Assembly (NCBI RefSeq): GCF_030643805.1
Contig: NZ_CP094656.1
Coordinates: forward strand, 1,736,001 to 1,800,000
Origin: Alkalihalobacillus sp. AL-G
Lineage (GTDB): Bacteria; Bacillota; Bacilli; Bacillales; Fictibacillaceae
DNA: 64,000 nucleotides
Direction of reading: 5' to 3'
Made by a program: the position numbers and the translations under genes. Below are positions 813-37,249 of the stretch, in pieces (position 1 is the first letter of the stretch; every line of letters starts with the position of its first letter). A model generated the notes under the pieces. It ran no database searches. It was not told where the DNA came from and worked only from the letters and a program-made list of their open reading frames with translations.

Positions 813-2615
813 ATGAGTCAGAAGACAAAACATCGGTTTCATTATTCGCAGGACCAGGCTATTGAAAAACAGTTCAACTGGCAACAAATGCTCCGTTTAT
901 TTTCCTATATAAAACCTTATAAGAATAATTTACTACCGAAGGCGATCATTACAATGTTAATATCGACAGCAGTCAGGCTTATCGTCCCTATTTTCATTGG
1001 GGTGCTGTTGTTTGACCATGCCATTAAAGATCGAGACGAAGGTTTACTCATTCAATTGATTTTTGGGATTGCCGGTCTATACATTTTCTCATGGATTGCC
1101 AACACGTTTCGGATCAAGTGGACGAATCAACTCGGTCAATATATTATTTACGACATCAGACAAGGGCTGTTTAAGCATATTCAACGGCTATCGCACCGGT
1201 TTTTTGATCAGCGTTCCGCAGGGTCGATATTGGTACGAATAATCAATGACGTAAACTCCCTACAGGAGCTATTTACAAATGGGGTCATTAATTTATTGAT
1301 GGACTTCATATTACTAGCGGGAATCATTGTCATCATGTTTGTTCTTAGTCCAGAGCTTACATTAGCGATCATGATCATTTTACCGCTTATGTTTTTCATT
1401 TCTACCAAATTGCGTCAAAAGATTCGTCGATCTTGGCAAATGGTTCGGATCAAACAAGCTAAGCTGAACTCTCATTTAAATGAAAGCATACAGGGCGTTC
1501 GTGTTACCCAATCATATACACAAGAACAAGAAAACATGGTTTTTTTTGAAGGGGTTAATGGTGAAACGTTTGAAAGCTGGAGAGATGCAACCAAAAAAAG
1601 TGCTGTTTTCCGGCCTTTTGTTGAAATGTCCAATGCGATTGGAACTGCCATTCTAATTTGGTACGGGGTTTATCTGATACAAAACGGAATGGACTATGGT
1701 GTGTTTGTTACATTTGCATTTTATCTTGGTATGTTTTGGGAACCGATTTCTCGGATGGGTCAGGTTTATAACCAGCTTCTTGTTGCGATGGCCTCAAGTG
1801 AGCGAATCTTCGAGTTTCTCGATGAAAAGCCAAATGTTTCAGAACGTAAAAATGCACTTACATTCGAAGAAATCGATGGAAAAATCGAATTTGAAAATGT
1901 TGAATTTTCATATGATACTAATCGTAAAGCTCTGAATGGAATTAACCTCACGATTGAGGCAGGAGAGACGATTGCGCTTGTAGGCCACACAGGGTCCGGT
2001 AAGACAACGATCGCCAATTTGATCAGTCGATTTTATGACCCTACTGCAGGTCAGGTTAAGATTGATGGTGTAGATTTAAGAGATGTGAAGCTTGATAGTC
2101 TTCGTCAAAAGGTAAGTGTTGTTCTCCAGGATACGTTTATATTCTCTGGGACGATTATGGAAAATATCCGATTCGGCCGTCCTGATGCAACAGATGAAGA
2201 AGTAATCCGTGCAGCTGAAGCAGTAGGCGCAAATACATTTATCGAAAAACTTGAAAATCAATATAAAACTGAGGTTGAAGAAAGAGGTAATGTATTATCC
2301 GTAGGGGAACGCCAGCTACTATCGTTTGCTCGGGCTTTGCTTGCAGACCCTAGAATTTTAATCCTTGATGAGGCGACAGCAAGCATTGATACAGAAACGG
2401 AGATTAAAATCCAACATGCTCTGAAGACCCTTCTAAATGGTCGAACCGCGATTATCATTGCCCATCGACTTTCTACAATCCGTGATTCAGATAACATTTT
2501 CGTGCTCGATCATGGAAACTTGCTTGAACAAGGTAATCATGAGTCGTTAATGAACCAAAAAGGGGAATATTATGATTTAATCGTCTCTCAGTTCAAAATG
2601 CTGGATGCGATGTAA
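813..2615 (+). CDS. ABC exporter half-transporter, permease-ATPase fusion
   Basis: A 600-aa ABC exporter subunit with an N-terminal six-helix membrane domain (about residues 30-330) and a C-terminal ATPase. Walker A is GHTGSGKTT, Walker B ends in the canonical LDEATAS with its catalytic Glu, and the H-loop is IIAHR. The ABC signature is non-canonical (LSVGERQ instead of LSGGQ). With the upstream partner having Asp for Glu, the two defects fall in the same composite site, as in asymmetric heterodimeric exporters. Start ATG has GAGGTGA upstream. Length fits YfiC-like proteins. It ends in an intrinsic terminator overlapping its stop codon. Confidence 0.9.
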   Translation: MSQKTKHRFHYSQDQAIEKQFNWQQMLRLFSYIKPYKNNLLPKAIITMLISTAVRLIVPIFIGVLLFDHAIKDRDEGLLIQLIFGIAGLYIFSWIANTFRIKWTNQLGQYIIYDIRQGLFKHIQRLSHRFFDQRSAGSILVRIINDVNSLQELFTNGVINLLMDFILLAGIIVIMFVLSPELTLAIMIILPLMFFISTKLRQKIRRSWQMVRIKQAKLNSHLNESIQGVRVTQSYTQEQENMVFFEGVNGETFESWRDATKKSAVFRPFVEMSNAIGTAILIWYGVYLIQNGMDYGVFVTFAFYLGMFWEPISRMGQVYNQLLVAMASSERIFEFLDEKPNVSERKNALTFEEIDGKIEFENVEFSYDTNRKALNGINLTIEAGETIALVGHTGSGKTTIANLISRFYDPTAGQVKIDGVDLRDVKLDSLRQKVSVVLQDTFIFSGTIMENIRFGRPDATDEEVIRAAEAVGANTFIEKLENQYKTEVEERGNVLSVGERQLLSFARALLADPRILILDEATASIDTETEIKIQHALKTLLNGRTAIIIAHRLSTIRDSDNIFVLDHGNLLEQGNHESLMNQKGEYYDLIVSQFKMLDAM

Positions 2616-2641
2616 AAAGCTGCCTAGTGCAGCTTTTTTTT
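2614..2641 (+). terminator. Intrinsic terminator of the ABC exporter operon
   Basis: AAGCTGC and GCAGCTT form a stem around CTAGT, followed by a run of eight T. The stem begins inside the stop codon of the upstream gene. Confidence 0.9.
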
Positions 2642-3026
2642 CGTACGTAGGGAAGTATGATTTATCTGCTGGAATACAATGTCGTTCACAATCTCTCATT
2701 TTTATCCGGCTAATACTCCAATACTCCCTCGAATACGTGCTACTAAACTTGAGAGCAACTGGAGTGGAGGGAAAATCTACACACAGTTACGAATCTTTTT
2801 AAAACAACATGTTCAATACTTCACAAACACAATGATCACTGTTACAATGGTGTAGTTCTTAAGTATGTGAAATTTGTCACAAAGTTTTCAACACTCTACT
2901 ACAAATTTGTAACATCTTAAATGATGTAACCGTTTGTGAAAGGATACAATATGGGTAAAGACTATAAGACGAACTTAACGAAGTTTTATTTAAAAAATCA
3001 TTGAATCGAAAATAGGGGGAGTTGTA
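2642..3026 (+). promoter_or_regulatory. Control region upstream of the bd-type oxidase genes
   Basis: About 385 bp without a convincing gene. It contains a Rex-like operator (2866-2881), a second dyad GTAACATC-N6-GATGTAAC (2909-2930), a lone TTGTGAAA half-site near 2934-2941 and a possible -10 box TACAAT near 2945-2950. The Shine-Dalgarno sequence AGGGGGAG lies just before the ATG at 3027. A 65-codon frame over 2605-2802 is an extension across the terminator and is not supported. Confidence 0.6.
2866..2881. promoter_or_regulatory. Rex-like operator
   Basis: TGTGAAATTTGTCACA has the TGTGA-N6-TCACA arrangement of the Rex binding consensus used in Bacillus and other Firmicutes. Rex senses NADH/NAD+ and represses cytochrome bd genes in B. 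subtilis. The position upstream of a bd-type oxidase operon agrees. Match to the consensus is seen directly; binding is inferred. Confidence 0.65.
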
Positions 3027-4358
3027 ATGCCGGAACTGGATACAGTAATGCTCAGTCGATTGCTAACGGCTATGACACTTGCGTTTCATATCATTTTTGC
3101 CACTCTAGGCGTAGGTGTACCATTACTCATCAGTGGTGCTGAATGGATAGGGATAAGACGAAATGATGATCATTACCGACTCCTTGCCCGACGTTGGACG
3201 AGAGGTTTTGTCGTTACGGTTGCTGTAGGAGTGGTCACAGGGACATGTATAGGACTACAGTTATCCTTGTTGTGGCCTAGCTTTATGGAAGTCGCAGGTC
3301 AGGTGATCGGATTACCGTTGTTTCTGGAAACATTCGCATTTTTTTTCGAGGCTATTTTTCTAGGAATTTATTTGTATACGTGGGACCGGTTTAAAAATCC
3401 ATATTACCACTGGCTCTTATCTGTTCCAGTTGTGATCGGATCTACTGCTTCTGCTTTTTTTATCACGACCGTAAATGCATTTATGAACGCTCCAAGAGGG
3501 TTTGAACTCAAAAATGGAGAACTTGTTGATATTCAACCGCTCATTGCGATGTTCAATCCGGCGACTCCAACAAAAGCATCTCATGTCATTTCAACGGCAT
3601 ACATGACAGCGGCGTTTGTATTAGCTGCAATTACCGCGTTTTTGATTTTACGAAAAGGTAAGAGTGATTACTATAAAAAAGCACTCCATTTCACCATGTT
3701 AACCGGATTTGTATTTGCGGTGGCTACTGCAATTATAGGAGACTTCTCAGGGAAGTACCTTGCAGAGTACCAGCCTGAAAAACTAGCTGCGGCAGAATGG
3801 CATTTTGAGACGGAAAGAGGGGCGGATTTAATCGTTGGGGGTATTTTATCCGAGGAAGGGGAGATAGAATATGCACTGCGAATTCCGAACGGTCTCAGCT
3901 ATCTTGCTCATGGTGACTTGAACTCTGAAGTGATTGGGTTAGAGGAATTTCCTGAAGATGAAACTGCACCATTGTTCATTCACTATCTGTTCGATCTGAT
4001 GGTAGGGATCGGAATGTTTCTAGTAGTCCTTTCTGGACTTTATCTACTTTTAGTAAAATGGCGAAGGGGTAACGCCTACTGGAAGCCTCTGCTTTGGGCG
4101 GTTGTTGCATCAGGTCCATTAGCGGTGCTTGCGATTGAAGCAGGATGGATTTTTTCTGAAATAGGTCGTCAGCCGTGGATCTTGTGGCATGTCATGAAAA
4201 CAGCAGACGGCGCAACGACAAGTGAACACGTCGGGGCGATGTTTATCCTGTTTGCTGCGTTATATGCTGTACTTGGAACGATATGCACCACTGTACTACT
4301 AAAAATGTTCAGAAAGTATCCTGCAGAAACAGAATTTGAGCAAATGAAACAAGGATAG
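3027..4358 (+). CDS. ythA: Cytochrome bd-type quinol oxidase subunit I
   Basis: Membrane subunit carrying the haems of a bd-type terminal oxidase that oxidises quinol and reduces oxygen to water. Visible landmarks are a His in helix I (AFHIIFATLG, residue ~21), the FLETFAFFFEAIFLG helix with conserved Glu residues, a His in KASHVISTAY (~190), the short quinol-loop motif GDFSGKYLAEYQPEK, the haem-ligand Met region DLMVGIGMF and the GRQPW signature. The length (443 aa) and short Q-loop fit the YthA/CIO branch rather than longer CydA. Subunit II follows after 5 bp. A Rex-like site upstream suggests induction when NADH is high or oxygen low. Confidence 0.88.
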   Translation: MPELDTVMLSRLLTAMTLAFHIIFATLGVGVPLLISGAEWIGIRRNDDHYRLLARRWTRGFVVTVAVGVVTGTCIGLQLSLLWPSFMEVAGQVIGLPLFLETFAFFFEAIFLGIYLYTWDRFKNPYYHWLLSVPVVIGSTASAFFITTVNAFMNAPRGFELKNGELVDIQPLIAMFNPATPTKASHVISTAYMTAAFVLAAITAFLILRKGKSDYYKKALHFTMLTGFVFAVATAIIGDFSGKYLAEYQPEKLAAAEWHFETERGADLIVGGILSEEGEIEYALRIPNGLSYLAHGDLNSEVIGLEEFPEDETAPLFIHYLFDLMVGIGMFLVVLSGLYLLLVKWRRGNAYWKPLLWAVVASGPLAVLAIEAGWIFSEIGRQPWILWHVMKTADGATTSEHVGAMFILFAALYAVLGTICTTVLLKMFRKYPAETEFEQMKQG

Positions 4359-4363
4359 GAGGG

Positions 4364-5389
4364 ATGGCTTTGGAAATACAACTTCTTGGTATAACAGTGT
4401 TATGGATCTTTCTTTATGGGTATTTGATTGTAGCGTCGATTGATTTTGGTGCTGGATTCTTTGCCTACTATGGAAAAGTGACAAAACGCGACGACGTCAT
4501 CAATAACATAATCAGTAGATACCTTTCACCTGTCTGGGAAGTTACCAATGTATTTTTCGTATTCTTTTTTGTCGGTTTAGTCGGCTTTTTCCCAAGTACA
4601 GCGTATTACTTTGGAACAGCATTACTCGTACCTGGAAGCATTGGGCTCGTATTATTGGCAATCAGGGGTTCGTTTTATGCATTCGGAAATTACGGAGCGA
4701 AGGAGAGTAATCTGTACACATTTTTATACGGAGCGACAGGGTTATTGATCCCTGCTTCGTTATCGACAGCTTTAACGATTTCAGAAGGCGGCTTTATGGT
4801 TGAAAAGGGAGGAACTGTCGTTTTTCTAGTAAAAGAATTATTCACAAGCTTCTACTCGTGGTCAGTTGTTTTCCTTGCGATTGTTAGTGTGTTATATATA
4901 AGTGCCATGTTTCTCACCTTTTATGCAAGTAAAGCTAAGGACATACAGGCTTTAGAGCTTTTACGGAAGTACGCCCTGTTCTGGAGTCCGCCGACGATCC
5001 TTGCGAGCTTTCTTGTGTTTGCTTCACTTAATGACCATAACCCAGAACACTTCCAAAATATGCTGGACTATTCTTATTTGTTTATGCTTTCGCTCTTTTG
5101 TTTCCTGATTGCAGTTTGGCTTGTTTATCGGAAAAAGAACTATGGGACAGCTTTTCTGTTTGTAATGCTACAGTTTCTGTTTGCCTTTTTCGGATATGGG
5201 GTATCTCATCTGCCGTATATCTTGTACCCGTACATTACACTGGATGCTGGATTTACGAATGAAACAATGGGAATTGCTCTAGTTATTGCGTTTATAGCAG
5301 GACTGTTATTATTAATTCCTTCCTTGTACCTGATTATGAGAATGTTCTTGTTTGATGCAAATTATGTCCAAGGGGATCGGCCAAAGTAA
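4364..5389 (+). CDS. ythB: Cytochrome bd-type quinol oxidase subunit II
   Basis: A 341-aa polytopic membrane protein of the CydB family, partner of subunit I encoded directly upstream. About eight or nine hydrophobic helices are visible, beginning with a region rich in aromatic residues (LWIFLYGYLIVASIDFGAGFF, shown here only in part by its SIDFGAGFF end), which is typical of CydB. The ATG at 4364 abuts the Shine-Dalgarno AGGAGG, so a TTG at 4370 with better spacing may be the true start. No CydX-like small gene and no cydCD genes follow. Confidence 0.85.
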   Translation: MALEIQLLGITVLWIFLYGYLIVASIDFGAGFFAYYGKVTKRDDVINNIISRYLSPVWEVTNVFFVFFFVGLVGFFPSTAYYFGTALLVPGSIGLVLLAIRGSFYAFGNYGAKESNLYTFLYGATGLLIPASLSTALTISEGGFMVEKGGTVVFLVKELFTSFYSWSVVFLAIVSVLYISAMFLTFYASKAKDIQALELLRKYALFWSPPTILASFLVFASLNDHNPEHFQNMLDYSYLFMLSLFCFLIAVWLVYRKKNYGTAFLFVMLQFLFAFFGYGVSHLPYILYPYITLDAGFTNETMGIALVIAFIAGLLLLIPSLYLIMRMFLFDANYVQGDRPK

Positions 5390-5448: not shown

Positions 5449-6111
5449 ATGAAGAAACAGTTTGCTGTTATTGGATTGGGTCGATTCGGCGGTAGCATTT
5501 GTCGGTCCTTGAGCAATAATGATATGGAAGTTCTGGCAATCGACAATGATGAAGATCGTGTTAATGAATACTCTTCAATTGCCACTCATGCCGTAATCGC
5601 GGATTCAACCGATGAAAATGTGTTGAAAAGCCTTGGCATCCGAAATTTTGACCACGTAATCGTTGCAATCGGTGACAACCTTCAAGCGAGCATTCTAACA
5701 ACATTGATCTTAAAAGAGCTGGATGTTGAACACATAACAGTGAAGGCTCAAAACGACTATCATGAAAAAGTATTACGTAAAATTGGAGCGGACCGGATCG
5801 TGCATCCTGAGCGAGATATGGGACAAAGGATTGCTCATAACATCATGTCCAACAATGTTCTTGATTACCTTGAGCTTTCTGATGAGCATAGTATCGTTGA
5901 ATTAATAGCGAGTGAAAAGATGCATGATAAAACATTGATCGAGTTGGATATTCGTGCGAATTATGGGTGTAACGTTGTAGCGATCAAACGTGGTGATGAG
6001 ATTGAAGTTTCCCCACAAGCGACATATACGATTATTGAAGAAGATATTTTGATTGTGATTGGTGCAGATAATGATATCAGCCGACTTGAAAAGCATCTGC
6101 TGATGGATTAA
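5449..6111 (+). CDS. ktrC: KtrA/KtrC-type K+ channel regulatory subunit (RCK domain)
   Basis: Cytosolic gating subunit of a Ktr potassium uptake channel. The N-terminal RCK/TrkA-N Rossmann domain starts with GLGRFGGS (residues 9-16) and binds nucleotide; ADSTDE follows the third strand. The C-terminal RCK_C domain (about 135-220) ends in IGADNDISRLE. At 220 aa it matches B. subtilis KtrC (YkqB), which also lies next to rnjA. Start ATG has TTGGAGGA upstream. It is a single gene with its own terminator, and its membrane partner (KtrD type) is not in this window. Confidence 0.88.
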   Translation: MKKQFAVIGLGRFGGSICRSLSNNDMEVLAIDNDEDRVNEYSSIATHAVIADSTDENVLKSLGIRNFDHVIVAIGDNLQASILTTLILKELDVEHITVKAQNDYHEKVLRKIGADRIVHPERDMGQRIAHNIMSNNVLDYLELSDEHSIVELIASEKMHDKTLIELDIRANYGCNVVAIKRGDEIEVSPQATYTIIEEDILIVIGADNDISRLEKHLLMD

Positions 6112-6190: not shown

Positions 6191-7065
6191 TTATAAACGC
6201 TAATCGATGGTGCATACTCCTGATAAATGTAAAATCCATGTTCGAATAAGTGCTAATCAGCGCACGATCCCCTAATTACTGTAAGAACCATGTCCGAATA
6301 AGTGCTAATCAGCGCACGATCCCCTAATTACTGTAAGAACCATGTCCGAATAAGTGCTAATCAGCGCACAATCCCCTAATTACTGTAAGAACTATGTCCG
6401 AATAAGTGCTGATCAGCGCGCAATCTCCTAATTACTGTAAGAACCATGTCCGAATAAGTGCTAATCTGCGCGCTCTCTCCTAATTACTGTAAGAAACATA
6501 CCCGAATAAGTGCTAATCAGCGCACAATCCCCTAATTACTGTAAGAACCATGTCCGAATAAGTGCTGATCAGCGCGCAATCTCCTAATTACTGTAAGAAC
6601 CATGTCCGAATAAGTGCTAATCAGCGCACGATCCCCTAATTACTGTAAGAACCATGTCCGAATAAGTGCTAATCAGCGCACGATCCCCTAATTACTGTAA
6701 GAACCATGTCCGAATAAGTGCTAATCAGCGCACGATCCCCTAATTACTGTAAGAACCATGTCCGAATAAGTGCTAATCAGCGCACGATCCCCTAATTACT
6801 GTAAGAACCATGTCCGAATAAGTGCTAATCAGCGCACAATCCCCTAATTACTGTAAGAACCATGTCCGAATAAGTGCTGATCAGCGCGCAATCTCCTAAT
6901 TACTGTAAGAACCATGTCCGAATAAGTGCTAATCTGCGCGCTCTCTCCTAATTACTGTAAGAACCATACCCGAATAAGTGCTAATCAATGCGCATTCCCC
7001 TAATTATTGTAAAAAACACACCCGAATAAGCGGTGATGTCAGCTATTTTCTAATAACCAGTATAC
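6191..7065. repeat. 52-bp tandem repeat array 1 (15 full units plus degenerate ends)
   Basis: Fifteen head-to-tail units start at 6243 and every 52 bases to 6971, with a degraded unit before (6191) and a partial one after (7023). No unit has an insertion or deletion. Each unit contains the imperfect palindrome GTGCTAATCAGCGCAC, the block CCTAATTACTGTAAG and CCATGTCCGAATAA. Unit variants occur in the order A A B C D B C A A A A B C D E, so a multi-unit block (A-B-C-D) has itself been duplicated. The array lies between convergent genes (ktrC and rnjA) and inside their two terminators. It is not coding: 52 is not a multiple of three and stops are frequent. It is homologous to the array at 35.1 kb in the opposite orientation. 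Confidence 0.95.
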
Positions 7066-7134: not shown

Positions 7135-8802
7135 TCACGTTTCCATTATGATTGGTAAGATCATAGGACGGCGTTTTGTTTTTTCATACAAGAACGGAGC
7201 TAGAACGTCCGTAATTTCATTTTTGATTTCGGACCATTGTGTCGTTCTTCTTTCCATCATTGCATTTAAATGTTTAGCAAGAATCCCTTGAGCGTCGTTG
7301 ATCAGATCTTCAGATTCTCTCATGTACACGAAGCCTCTTGAAATGATGTCAGGACCTGATACGATTCTGAATTCTTTCATATTGATACTAACGACTACGA
7401 CAACCAAACCTTCCTCAGAAAGGATTTTTCTGTCGCGAAGAACGATATTGCCGATGTCACCAATACCATTTCCATCTACATATACTGACCCGGATGGGAT
7501 CTTTCCAGCAATGGATGCTTCTCCCTCACTCAAAGCAAGTACTTCACCATTATCCATAATAAAACAATTATTTTCGTCAACATCACAATCCGTTGCTAGC
7601 TGTGTGTGCATTTTCAACATTCGATATTCACCATGGATCGGCATGAAATACTTAGGCTTCATTAATCGAAGCATTAACTTTTGTTCTTGTTGGCCGCCGT
7701 GTCCAGACGTATGAATATCATTCAACGAGCCTGCAATTACGTTTGCACCTGCTCGGTGGAGTTGATTGATGATTTTACTGACGCTTAGTGTATTCCCAGG
7801 AATCGGTGAAGACGAGAATACGACTGTATCTCCAGGAATGATTTGGATTTGACGATGTGTACCGTTCGCAATTCTAGATAAAGCAGCCATCGGTTCGCCT
7901 TGACTTCCTGTACATAAAATCGCTACTTCATTATCGGGAATGCGATTAATCTGATTCGACTCAATAAAAGCATCCTTAGGAGCGCGAATATACCCAAGCT
8001 CTTGTCCGATGGTAATGTTTGAATCCATACTTCTTCCGAACACAGCAATCTTCCGGTCATTTTCTATAGCGGCTTCAACAACCTGCTGAAGTCGATGAAT
8101 ATTTGATGCGAAGGTTGCAAAGATGACACGGCCATCCACTTTTCGGAAAATGTCTTGAATGCTTTCCCCGACACGTCTTTCAGACATGGTAAAGCCAGGC
8201 ACTTCACTATTGGTACTGTCAGATAGTAAGCACAGTACACCTTCTTGCCCAATCTGTGCCATTTTAGTTAAGTTTGCCGGCTCGCCGACTGGTGTGAAAT
8301 CGAATTTAAAATCCCCTGTATGGACAATGTTTCCTGGTGGTGTTTTTACAACAACCCCGAATGCATCCGGAATCGAGTGGGTCGTTCTGAAAAACGTGAT
8401 AGACGTTTTTCTAAACTTGATCACATCATCTTCCTGAATCTCATACAATTTTGTTTTACGCAATAATCCGTGCTCTTCAAGTTTGTTCTTAAGAAGGCCG
8501 ATTGCAAGTTTCCCACCGTAAATTGGTATATTAAGTTGACGAAGAAGGTACGGAATTCCTCCGATGTGGTCTTCGTGCCCGTGGGTAATGAATAACCCTT
8601 TGATTTTGTCTACATTTTTGACCAAGTATGTGTAATCTGGAATGACATAATCGATACCGAGAAGTTCATCCTCAGGGAATTTGATACCTGCGTCAATTAA
8701 GATGATTTCATCCTGAAATTGAACACCGTATGTGTTTTTTCCAATCTCGTCTAATCCACCTAATGCAAAAACAGCGGTCTGATGATTTTTTACAAATTTC
8801 AT
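7135..8802 (-). CDS. rnjA: Ribonuclease J1
   Basis: A 555-aa metallo-beta-lactamase/beta-CASP RNase with 5'-3' exonuclease and endonuclease activity, central to mRNA decay and rRNA maturation. The zinc motif HGHEDH (about residues 74-79) follows the first strands, with HTGDFKFD and SDSTN further on. The beta-CASP domain includes the nucleotide-binding stretch and [10 protein letters not shown] near residue 368. Length equals B. subtilis RnjA. rpoY lies 3 bp upstream, the same operon as in B. subtilis. SR1P, encoded at 22.8 kb, promotes GapA-RNase J1 contact in B. subtilis. Confidence 0.97.
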
Positions 8803-27958: not shown

Positions 27959-28147
27959 GAACTTTTGGGGAGGGTGATTAATATTGGTACACGCAATAAC
28001 CACTCCCCACGCGAAAAATTCGAGTTGCACGCCAAAACTCCGAGTACACCTCAAAACTCCAAATTGCCCTCATACATAGACCGCAAATCCTATTAGGACT
28101 GCAATTTGCATTACTTCATTCGTTTTTTATATGTATTCTTTCAAAAA
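27959..28147. other. Intergenic stretch between two terminators
   Basis: No supported gene. The only notable feature is the strong Shine-Dalgarno-like GGGGAGGGTG at 27967-27976, followed six bases later by ATTG, where a 37-codon frame from ATT (27983-28096) or a 31-codon frame from TTG (27984) could begin. Confidence 0.4.
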
Positions 28148-34718: not shown

Positions 34719-34997
34719 TTGTCGACTGAGATGGTAACCGGTCATCGTGAAAAAGCATACGCACTATTAAAAGCGGATGCGGAAAAAATTCTCAAGTTGA
34801 TCGAAGTTCAAATGGAAAATTTAACGATGCCGCAATGCCCTCTTTATGAGGAAGTTCTGGATACGCAAATGTTCGGGCTTTCCAGAGAGATTGATTTTGC
34901 TGTTCGTTTAAATTTAATAGAAGCAGAACAAGGGAAGGCACTTTTAGAATCATTGGAACGTCAACTTACAGCGCTGCACGATGCCTGGTCAAAATAG
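34719..34997 (+). CDS. ylaN: YlaN family (UPF0358) iron-related regulator
   Basis: A 92-aa helical protein; B. subtilis YlaN is 93 aa. YlaN is known to be needed under iron limitation and to act on the ferric uptake regulator Fur. It begins (M)[19 protein letters not shown]. Start TTG with GGAGGGA. A hairpin terminator follows, then a 52-bp repeat array. Confidence 0.9.
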
Positions 34998-35036: not shown

Positions 35037-35078
35037 AAAACTCAAACCACCTAAAAGAGGAAGGTTTGAGTTTTTATT
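35037..35078 (+). terminator. Terminator after ylaN
   Basis: AAACTCAAACC pairs with GGTTTGAGTTT, followed by TTTATTTT. It lies just before repeat array 2. Confidence 0.88.
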
Positions 35079-35089
35079 TTGTTAAAAGT

Positions 35090-35679
35090 AGGTAGTGTGC
35101 ACGCCGGATAGGGTGTAGTCGGATATGGAATTAACAATAATTAGGGGAATGTGCGCTGAATAGGACTTAAACGGACATGGGATTAACAAAAATTAGGGGA
35201 AGGCGCACCGAATAGGACGTAATCGGACAGGTAATTAACAATAATTAGGAAAATGCGCGCTGAATAGGACTTAAACGGATATGGAATTAACAATAATTAG
35301 GAAAATGCGCGCCGAATAGGGTGTAATCGGATATGGAATTAACAATAATTAGGGGAATGTGCGCCGGATAGGGTGTAATCGGATATGGAATTAACAATAA
35401 TTAGGGGAATGTGCGCTGAATAGGACTTAAACGGATATGGAATTAACAATAATTAGGAAAATGCGCGCTGAATAGGACTTAAACGGATATGGAATTAACA
35501 AAAAATAGGAGAATGCGCACCGAATAGGACGTAATCGAACATGGGATTAACAAAAAATAGGAGAATGCGCGCTGAATAGGACTTAAACGGACATGGGATT
35601 AACAAAAAATAGGAGAATGCGCACCGAATAGGACGTAATCGGATATGGAATTAACAAAAATTAGGGGAAGGTGCAACAA
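35090..35679. repeat. 52-bp tandem repeat array 2 (11 units, inverted relative to array 1)
   Basis: Eleven units start at 35108 and then every 52 bases to 35628, again without any length change. Each carries ATAGG-(A/G), GGA(C/T)ATGG, ATTAACAA and a GCGC(A/G)CC/T-type block. The reverse complement of a unit matches array 1 at about 40 of 52 positions by hand count, including TCAGCGCAC, CCCCTAATTA, CCAT-TCCG and TAAGT-CTA. The array lies between convergent genes (ylaN and the NERD gene). No terminator is evident for the NERD gene, so its transcript may run through the array. Confidence 0.93.
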
Positions 35680-35688
35680 TTGGTTGGA

Positions 35689-36606
35689 TTATTCACCAGT
35701 CCTGACATAATAAGAGGATCTGCCTTTTGAGATGACATTAAAATGCTGCTGAAGAACCCTTTTTATTGTAGATTTAGATTCAATAATGTGGCACCATTCA
35801 TGAACAGCGTTTGTCGTTATTTTTTTCTCTGGAAAAAGTAGGGTATATTCATTCACACTCCTTGTAACGGCTTTTGTGACATTTTCTGTACACCCACATT
35901 TGTTACATACTATAAACCTATCTCTCAAGTCCACAAAACTTTGACAGTTTGGGCATGTTATTCCTTTTTTTAGTTGGTCGTACGAATATTCAGGCACGCG
36001 TGTGAAGGGATTTTTCTTCACATGTAAGGATACTAACTTTTCAGCAAGTTTCGTGTGGTATGTTCTTAAATTCGATGGGGTCTGATTCAATTTGTGTATG
36101 AAGCGGTTAATCTGGGTTGGAAAAATGATGGACTGGTTCAGAGGGGCTTGATAAAGGTGAAACTCGGGGTTTACGAAGATAACGTGGCCTTCAATCGGCA
36201 AGTTGACACCAAGCTCTTGAAGTAAGCTTCGGAATAAGGATTCACCACGGTCCAATTGCAGCAGGGGATCCTTACGTTCTTTTTTGTCAAGCGTGTACCA
36301 TCTCCCTTTTTCAATAATATAGTCACCTTCATGGTTTTTTACATCGTTAAAGTAAAGTCTATCTTTGGCGATCAGCAGGTTATCAATTTGAAAAAACGTG
36401 TTGTTGTATTCATAGAGCAAGTCATTCAGAATCAGGCATTCCATTTTCAGCTTTTGACCCAGGTGGGCATCGAAAGCTGCTTCACCCTCGAATCCTTTTT
36501 CCAGTTTCCTGTAATAATTCATATGATCCTTTGACAATTGCATCCGTGATTTTAGAAACCTCACAAGTTTCAATTCATCCGATTCAACTCGTTGTTTAAA
36601 TAACAT
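35689..36606 (-). CDS. NERD-domain protein with zinc ribbon
   Basis: A 305-aa protein with a NERD (nuclease-related) domain: GFEGEAAFDAHL near residue 38, QIDNLLI near 73 and YFNDVKNHEGDY near 87 supply the acidic and Lys residues expected of a restriction-like fold. A zinc ribbon with CPNC and CNKCGC follows near 220-240. The C-terminal 60 residues are basic. It may process nucleic acid, but no activity is proven. It is absent from the B. subtilis order between ylaN and ftsW. Confidence 0.8.
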   Translation of the reverse strand: MLFKQRVESDELKLVRFLKSRMQLSKDHMNYYRKLEKGFEGEAAFDAHLGQKLKMECLILNDLLYEYNNTFFQIDNLLIAKDRLYFNDVKNHEGDYIIEKGRWYTLDKKERKDPLLQLDRGESLFRSLLQELGVNLPIEGHVIFVNPEFHLYQAPLNQSIIFPTQINRFIHKLNQTPSNLRTYHTKLAEKLVSLHVKKNPFTRVPEYSYDQLKKGITCPNCQSFVDLRDRFIVCNKCGCTENVTKAVTRSVNEYTLLFPEKKITTNAVHEWCHIIESKSTIKRVLQQHFNVISKGRSSYYVRTGE

Positions 36607-36760: not shown

Positions 36761-37249
36761 ATGTTATTTGTTTGGGTTATCTTCGTCTTATTTCCTTTAG
36801 CAACACTTTTGCATGAACTTGGACATTTTATTACAGCACGATCATTCCGTGCAGACAATACACGAATAATACTGGGTATCGGTCCTATTTTGTTTCGTGT
36901 ATCCAATCGATTTATTAATATAGAAGTACATGCTTTATACTTTATTAGGGGATATACAATTGGGGTTGAGTCAAACGAACTGCCTAATCTTCAAAAAGCA
37001 CTGATTTCGGTAAATGGACCACTGATTAATGCTGTTGTCGGTTGCTATGGGTGGATGTATGCGGAAAATTTACCGTTTGAATCAACTAATGGCCAACTGA
37101 TTTTTTTGTTTTCAATGGTGAATATATGGATTGCAGCAGGTAATTTGGTTCCCTTCAAGCTTGGAAGTAAAAAGTCAGACGGATTTATTGCCCTTGAAAT
37201 GCTAATGAAGTACATAAAAGCAATAACACAAAAAGGTGCCAAATCATAA
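36761..37249 (+). CDS. M50-like membrane zinc metallopeptidase homologue
   Basis: A 162-aa membrane protein with the zinc motif HELGH at residues 22-26 in the first helix and the second motif NLVPFKLGSKKSDG near 127-140, resembling the NxxP...DG motif of site-2 proteases. It is much shorter than RseP/SpoIVFB. A proteolytic role is possible; the substrate is unknown. Ribosome-binding site AAGGGGG. Confidence 0.72.
   Translation: MLFVWVIFVLFPLATLLHELGHFITARSFRADNTRIILGIGPILFRVSNRFINIEVHALYFIRGYTIGVESNELPNLQKALISVNGPLINAVVGCYGWMYAENLPFESTNGQLIFLFSMVNIWIAAGNLVPFKLGSKKSDGFIALEMLMKYIKAITQKGAKS

Follow-up and report, generated by a model that had tools for sequence, protein, structure and literature searches.

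In the 64,000-nucleotide window analysed here (positions 1736001–1800000 of the single-contig, 4,155,898-base genome of Alkalihalobacillus sp. AL-G), a tandem array of 11.0 units of 52 bp, termed array 2 (35098–35669, minus strand), lies 19 bp from a gene on the same strand (35689–36606) that encodes a 305-residue protein with a NERD domain (Pfam PF08378, E 9.5e-16). The gene belongs to a clade, termed NERD-52, whose members are linked to tandem arrays of 51–52 bp, and the families of 52-bp units in the AL-G genome are each private to one such gene. The chance is put at about even that array 2 is the private satellite of the adjoining NERD-domain gene, part of a nuclease-linked system in which recognition of the protein's own unit would drive the expansion and spread of the arrays, and in which the protein clade would set the length of the unit.

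The linkage was defined in eight genomes of the genus, which together contain 38 matches to the array-2 NERD protein. These comprise 15 full-length close homologues, including array 2's own (at least 43% identity), one fragment lying where a contig ends, and 22 distant homologues (23–30% identity); Tandem Repeats Finder (TRF) was run around all 38. Every one of the 15 full-length close homologues has a 51–52-bp array within 200 bp, and in 13 of them the array is on the 3′ side of the gene, one of these having arrays on both sides. The same arrangement was observed in a replication set of 29 new loci, one per genome (the best match), drawn from 17 genera in 11 families: in 28 of them an array of 51–53 bp lies 3′ of the gene at a distance of up to about 155 bp, and the remaining locus has an array of 102-bp period. 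The background, determined in 1.2 Mb of two genomes with NERD genes not removed, is 10 of 836 open reading frames (ORFs; 1.2%) with a 51–53-bp array no more than 200 bp away on one side or the other, and 17 of 836 with a 20–22-bp array within 300 bp. Matches to the NERD protein at E 1e-40 or better are present in 111 of 299 genomes of the order, representing 46 of 116 genera. Among the matches listed, the 3′ end of twelve NERD genes falls less than 460 bp from the start of a contig, as does the 5′ end of one, as expected if assemblies break at the arrays.

Unit length is specific to the protein clade: 51–52 bp in the NERD-52 clade and 20–21 bp in a second one. Arrays of 20–21 bp lie within 280 bp of 19 of the 22 distant homologues, mostly on the 5′ side (for example at L148, L150, L154 and L143). 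The tree of NERD proteins, rooted at its midpoint and built from 59 of 67 sequences (eight were fragments, short or flagged), separates 43 NERD-52 proteins from 16 others. The arrays of the NERD-52 clade are also polar, 38 of the 41 located 3′ of their genes being rich in pyrimidines on the sense strand of the gene (P 1e-8), as are two of the four located on the 5′ side. At two loci, arrays of the same orientation flank the NERD-52 gene on both sides, as if the gene were sitting inside an array; their units are alike at 48 of 52 positions in L138 (arrays 3138–3587 and 4709–4997) and at 37 of 52 in L193 (arrays 199–1282 and 2541–3203).

The AL-G genome contains four NERD-52 genes. The best mutual match among the units that adjoin them, between N1 and N2, is 25 of 52 positions, a value reached by 5 and 10 of 200 shuffles, and the remaining matches lie within the range of shuffled units. 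A sample of 40 stretches of 20 kb, taken at near-even steps and avoiding the 11 loci covered separately, yielded six 52-bp arrays by TRF, one of them NERD-adjacent, at 2197 kb. Each of the other five matches the unit of one paralogue at 31 to 48 of 52 positions, which none of 200 shuffles attained, and none matches the units of the other three paralogues at such a level. When arrays from three of these families were used as DNA queries, further copies were recovered elsewhere in the genome. The genome holds several unrelated 52-bp families, as do genomes with the published 52-nucleotide class of repeats described below. Both arrays sampled in another genome, G286, likewise match its NERD-adjacent unit. 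Four genomes with a NERD gene gave 6, 4, 8 and 2 arrays of 51–53 bp (20 in the 1.6 Mb sampled), and no such array was found in the 400 kb sampled from two genomes without a NERD match at E 1e-40. Comparison of all NERD-adjacent units in 990 pairs showed that about 3% are related, because 32 pairs reach 28 of 52 positions while shuffled pairs reach at most 26. The unit of array 2 is unlike all 44 others, its best match being 26 of 52 positions against 24 to 30 for shuffles.

Array 2 belongs to a 52-bp family dispersed over the AL-G chromosome. A first-pass annotation of the window had counted 11 units of exactly 52 bp at this site, in agreement with TRF (period 52, 85% matches, no indels), and had described them as a diverged and inverted copy, with unit length retained, of the family that forms array 1 (6219–7032, plus strand). 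Array 1 comprises 16 profile matches, with a degenerate first unit and a partial last one, and is delimited by TRF at 6228–7030 (period 52, 15.4 copies). TRF, consensus alignment and profile all place the two arrays in one family. At the best rotation, the consensus of array 1 is identical to the reverse complement of that of array 2 at 38 of 52 positions, and at 24 of 52 on the other strand. The earlier hand count of about 40 was therefore slightly high; the similarity itself is real, as 38 exceeds the maximum of 28 (mean 21.5) obtained in 2000 shuffles, a control set beforehand.

The profile search of both genome strands that the annotation had proposed was carried out. DNA search of the genome gave 14 matches in 11 separate arrays, in which an iterated profile gathers 90 units; with a model built from 67 units, 150 of 2552 first-look candidates were scored, and none of those outside the 11 arrays did better than E 0.4, so that this scored set contains no convincing solo copy of the unit. 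The strand reading CCTAATT, which in array 2 is the minus strand and thus the strand of the adjoining NERD gene, is the plus strand in five arrays and the minus strand in six. As had been argued from the opposite orientation of arrays 1 and 2, this distribution speaks against strand-polar motifs of the Chi or KOPS type, as far as counts over one whole chromosome, not split by replichore, can tell. Unit spacing is exactly 52 bp in 76 of 79 cases, the others being 51, 53 and 102 bp, and within arrays at least 144 substitutions stand against three length changes. Units appear to be homogenised within arrays, because spelling differs more between arrays than among the units inside one array. The family profile has no match in seven of seven other genomes of the genus (E 1e-5) or in 33 of 33 other genomes of the family (E 1e-6; the 33 include the seven genus mates), and by these searches the unit of array 2 has a species-specific sequence.

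Two further leads on this family were followed and dropped. A core pattern of the unit, searched in the contigs of named genomes (a set that may omit the AL-G genome's own records), gave 12 stretches, none with a 52-bp TRF array; five of these are Paenibacillus sequences with similar flanks, and so represent one shared stretch and not the repeat. AT content shows weak power at 10.4 bp (P 0.018, uncorrected), but so does a neighbouring period (P 0.036). Within array 1 (window 6271–7030), a variant block of four units recurs nine units away with one difference, which suggests that several units were exchanged or slipped together.

The insertion sites were compared with those of relatives. Array 2 begins just after a terminator-like hairpin seen in the sequence (35039–35079, plus strand) behind its left neighbour, a DUF1507 gene (34719–34997, plus strand; PF07408); the right neighbour of the NERD gene encodes a peptidase M50 (36761–37249, plus strand; PF02163). 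The DUF1507 locus is conserved in all eight genomes of the genus and serves for an empty-site comparison: the NERD gene and tandem array are present only in the AL-G genome, and in seven of seven genus mates there is no NERD match and no tandem repeat within 1.5 kb. Array 1 is placed between the two terminators of convergent genes, a TrkA-type gene on its left (5449–6111, plus strand; PF02254, PF02080) and the ribonuclease J1 gene on its right (7135–8802, minus strand; NCBIfam NF047419). At the corresponding locus of genus mate G005 the two terminators stand back to back, and in genus mate G007 the locus holds a 52-bp array of different sequence; other relatives, with different neighbours or extra sequence, were left out of this comparison. 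Judged from the empty sites, insertion of the arrays would be a simpler reading than their loss in the relatives. Elsewhere in the window, the small RNA SR1 (RF02376, 22803–22941) is the sole Rfam match at the gathering threshold; like the DUF1507–ftsW locus and RNase J1, it points to a bacterium of the Bacillus type.

The arrays of the AL-G genome are unevenly distributed with respect to genes. Among 30 arrays, 10 occupy convergent regions, for which 11.6% would be expected (P 0.0015), and a single one occupies a divergent region, where the expectation is 19% (P 0.015). These counts, which omit L260 (no TRF array), are approximate, being based on rough hexamer-based gene calls that disagree with a first ORF pass on the context of some arrays. 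The hexamer caller, although trained on the AL-G genome, missed three of its NERD-52 genes (L021, L079 and L164); the composition of these genes may be unusual, with a G+C content of 0.37–0.39 against 0.40 for the window.

The NERD domain is the sole Pfam match of array 2's neighbour gene, at 58.7 bits against a cut-off of 22.1. Residues E42, D75 and K90 are invariant in 40 of 40 aligned homologues, the residue two positions before K90 varying between E, D and N. These three residues are the catalytic ones of a predicted PD-(D/E)xK nuclease, whose core is intact. Cysteines 218, 221, 234 and 237, also invariant in 40 of 40 homologues, make up a four-cysteine zinc ribbon (residues 218–237). In the AlphaFold model (mean predicted local distance difference test score 93.3), the ribbon is followed by helices 243–257, 265–272 and 278–288 and then by two short strands, which suggests a winged-helix-like C-terminal domain.

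We infer a cycle of own-unit binding, cutting or nicking, repair-driven expansion and spread to new sites. The protein would bind its own unit through the winged-helix-like domain and the zinc ribbon, and the PD-(D/E)xK core would cut or nick the bound unit. Repair or re-replication of the cut array would then cause whole units to be gained, lost and homogenised, and would occasionally seed an array at a new site, with or without the gene. Protein geometry would fix the unit length, at 52 bp or roughly five turns of the helix for one clade and at 20–21 bp or roughly two turns for the other; under such a ruler, length would stay constant while sequence varies, the unit drifting along with the DNA-binding domain. 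Arrays would survive where they are least harmful, behind genes and away from promoters.

Several observations weigh against this reading. The linkage alone would also fit other functions, and binding, cutting and movement are predicted properties of the system. The linkage has exceptions: two of the 15 close homologues have their array solely on the 5′ side, and neither of these arrays is rich in pyrimidines; the contig-end fragment (L172) has no array; three of the 22 distant NERD genes have none, also at a lower TRF threshold; and no tandem array lies near the strongest NERD match of the AL-G genome (G000 1201037–1201378, L262). The privacy of units is less clear in genus mate G003, where two of four sampled arrays match a NERD-adjacent unit beyond all shuffles (L117 and, weakly, L103), a third (L110) is borderline (4 of 200 shuffles) and one has no match. 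The best fold matches of the NERD protein in the PDB are R2 retrotransposon proteins, followed by Can2/Card1-type nucleases and the nicking enzyme Nt.BspD6I. The nature of these matches counts in favour of the reading; their TM-scores are all near 0.3, and they do not confirm the winged helix. Searches at E 1e-10 through 72,556 records of plasmids and 50,697 of phages found no NERD homologue; the gene is therefore not an ordinary mobile one, and the system seems to reside on the chromosome. Of 45 NERD-adjacent units, 23 have a significant dyad, the symmetry to be expected if the protein binds as a dimer, and the unit of array 2 is not among them (P 0.55). Helical phasing is not seen, conservation along the unit having no 10.4-bp periodicity (P 0.94).

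Co-variation between proteins and units was assessed in 37 of 41 protein–unit pairs, four stop-flagged rows being left out. Unit similarity correlates more strongly with how alike the C-terminal domains are (Mantel r 0.21, P 0.0015) than with the identity of the N-terminal part (r 0.11, P 0.054). The C-terminal correlation is weaker when units are compared by shared 6-mers (r 0.12, P 0.02), and its weakness counts against the private-satellite reading. The co-variation is weak and consistent with recognition by the C-terminal domain; shared ancestry could alone give it, and it is no proof of recognition because gene and array are inherited together. Stop flags on some rows of the order-wide search had raised the question of broken NERD-52 genes. 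Of four flagged loci that were translated, L179, L198 and L201 are full length and L178 is short, and no decay is claimed.

Array 2 alone is an ordinary member of a published class. Non-coding tandem repeats with a constant unit of 52 nucleotides (and others of 20–21 nucleotides) have been described for Bacillus (Subirana and Messeguer 2021, PMC8161180), with units of 51–53 nucleotides, at least four copies, several families per genome, species-specific sequence and short motifs conserved within a species. Array 2 falls within these bounds of unit length and copy number. Comparison of 38 of the 45 NERD-adjacent units (those of exactly 52 bp) with 18 published 52-nucleotide units gave two clear matches, to B. 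coagulans family 8 and B. litoralis family 42, at 35 and 37 of 52 positions; four other published units beat all 40 shuffles by 1 to 3 positions, and 12 do not. An inner dyad scores in 15 of these 18 consensus units (of 27 listed in PMC8161180), but just in the 23 of 45 NERD-adjacent units given above and not in that of array 2, and a universal inner dyad was discarded. The authors of PMC8161180 see no obvious function, suggest a protein that polymerises on the DNA or small RNAs, report that nothing speaks for a Cas-like protein interacting with the repeats, and list one tandem repeat for B. subtilis. The dispersal of long-unit non-coding satellites is given as rare in prokaryotes in an earlier survey (PMC6749651). 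What sets the present families apart is that they are tied to NERD-domain genes; no published link between NERD proteins and tandem repeats was found in a literature search lacking most subscription papers. A two-copy 20-bp repeat detected by TRF at window 28008–28045 has the size of the second published class.

The combination of a nuclease-like gene with a private satellite of fixed unit length fits no known family that could be named, and the two-part system is rated as new. It shares with REPIN/RAYT systems a resident chromosomal gene that adjoins its private, extragenically dispersed repeat family. RAYT genes are chromosomal residents that encode a Y1 tyrosine transposase, and their repeats are palindromic hairpins, single or paired, whereas the gene here is NERD nuclease-like and the 52-bp arrays are strictly tandem. 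CRISPR arrays are likewise tandem and adjoin a nuclease-like gene, but they have unique spacers between repeats, whereas the units of the array-2 family are contiguous and similar throughout. The system would best be read as a selfish or half-domesticated gene-plus-repeat element that follows a REPIN/RAYT-like logic with unrelated parts.

Other readings of the linkage have to be weighed against this private-satellite interpretation, and three of them (defence or addiction, an RNA partner, and chromosome architecture) are serious competitors. In the first, a role in defence or addiction, the NERD nuclease is restrained by its own array as an antidote or decoy, so that foreign DNA devoid of such an array is cut, or the enzyme is set free once the array is lost. 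It would be in keeping with the PD-(D/E)xK core, with the closeness of array and gene in nearly all cases examined, and with a weak NCBIfam match to one portion of MAD6, a defence protein (E 6.2e-7; 28.3 bits, where the cut-off is 460). It is nevertheless unlikely: there is no PADLOC match, no defence family is present among the four genes scanned around array 2 (DUF1507, glutaminase, peptidase M50 and FtsW-type), and the other ten chromosomal arrays of this family would be left unexplained.

The position of arrays on the 3′ side and their fixed strand polarity (38 of 41) would also suit an RNA partner, in which transcripts of the array behind the gene would guide or titrate the NERD protein. 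Transcripts of 52-nucleotide repeats were detected in B. coagulans RNA-seq data by the authors of PMC8161180 (PMC8625621). Against this stand the dispersed arrays of the array-2 family in four tandem gene contexts (first ORF pass), which run twice with the genes and twice against them, the restriction of a significant dyad to about half of the NERD-adjacent units, and the lack of any Rfam match at the arrays; the RNA-partner reading is improbable. A tRNA scan also gave nothing at the arrays.

Chromosome architecture, in which the protein would form polymers along 52-bp arrays and aid the organisation of nucleoid or supercoils, is among the published suggestions, and is rated marginally lower still. 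The constant length near five helical turns and the enrichment of arrays in convergent regions argue for it. It is at odds with the missing 10.4-bp periodicity of conservation, with the empty sites of array 2 in seven genus mates and of array 1 in at least one, and with the presence of an E 1e-40 NERD match in just 111 of 299 genomes of the order. Neutral minisatellites, grown by slippage alone and linked to the gene by hitch-hiking, would account for the recurring four-unit block and degenerate end units of array 1 but are strongly disfavoured and very improbable, given the linkage of 15/15 and 28/29 against a 1.2% background for mostly unrelated sequences on mostly the 3′ side, the unit length that is constant across unrelated sequences, and the excess of substitutions over length changes within arrays.

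Extended from array 2 to NERD proteins in general, the private-satellite interpretation would make these proteins satellite-making enzymes, one clade building and spreading 52-bp arrays and the other 20–21-bp arrays; every paralogue would write a unit sequence of its own, and the protein would set how long that unit is. This generalization is tentative, its probability being put somewhat short of even. If true, a single family of nucleases would account for the two puzzling classes of tandem repeats in bacteria, and would constitute a kind of repeat-generating element undescribed before. The 52-nucleotide and 20–21-nucleotide repeats of Bacillus-type genomes were published as an enigma without a partner protein, and their link to NERD clades makes the question testable. 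For NERD proteins, in turn, the linkage to arrays provides a concrete DNA context, and dozens of natural protein–unit pairs are offered from which a recognition code may be read.
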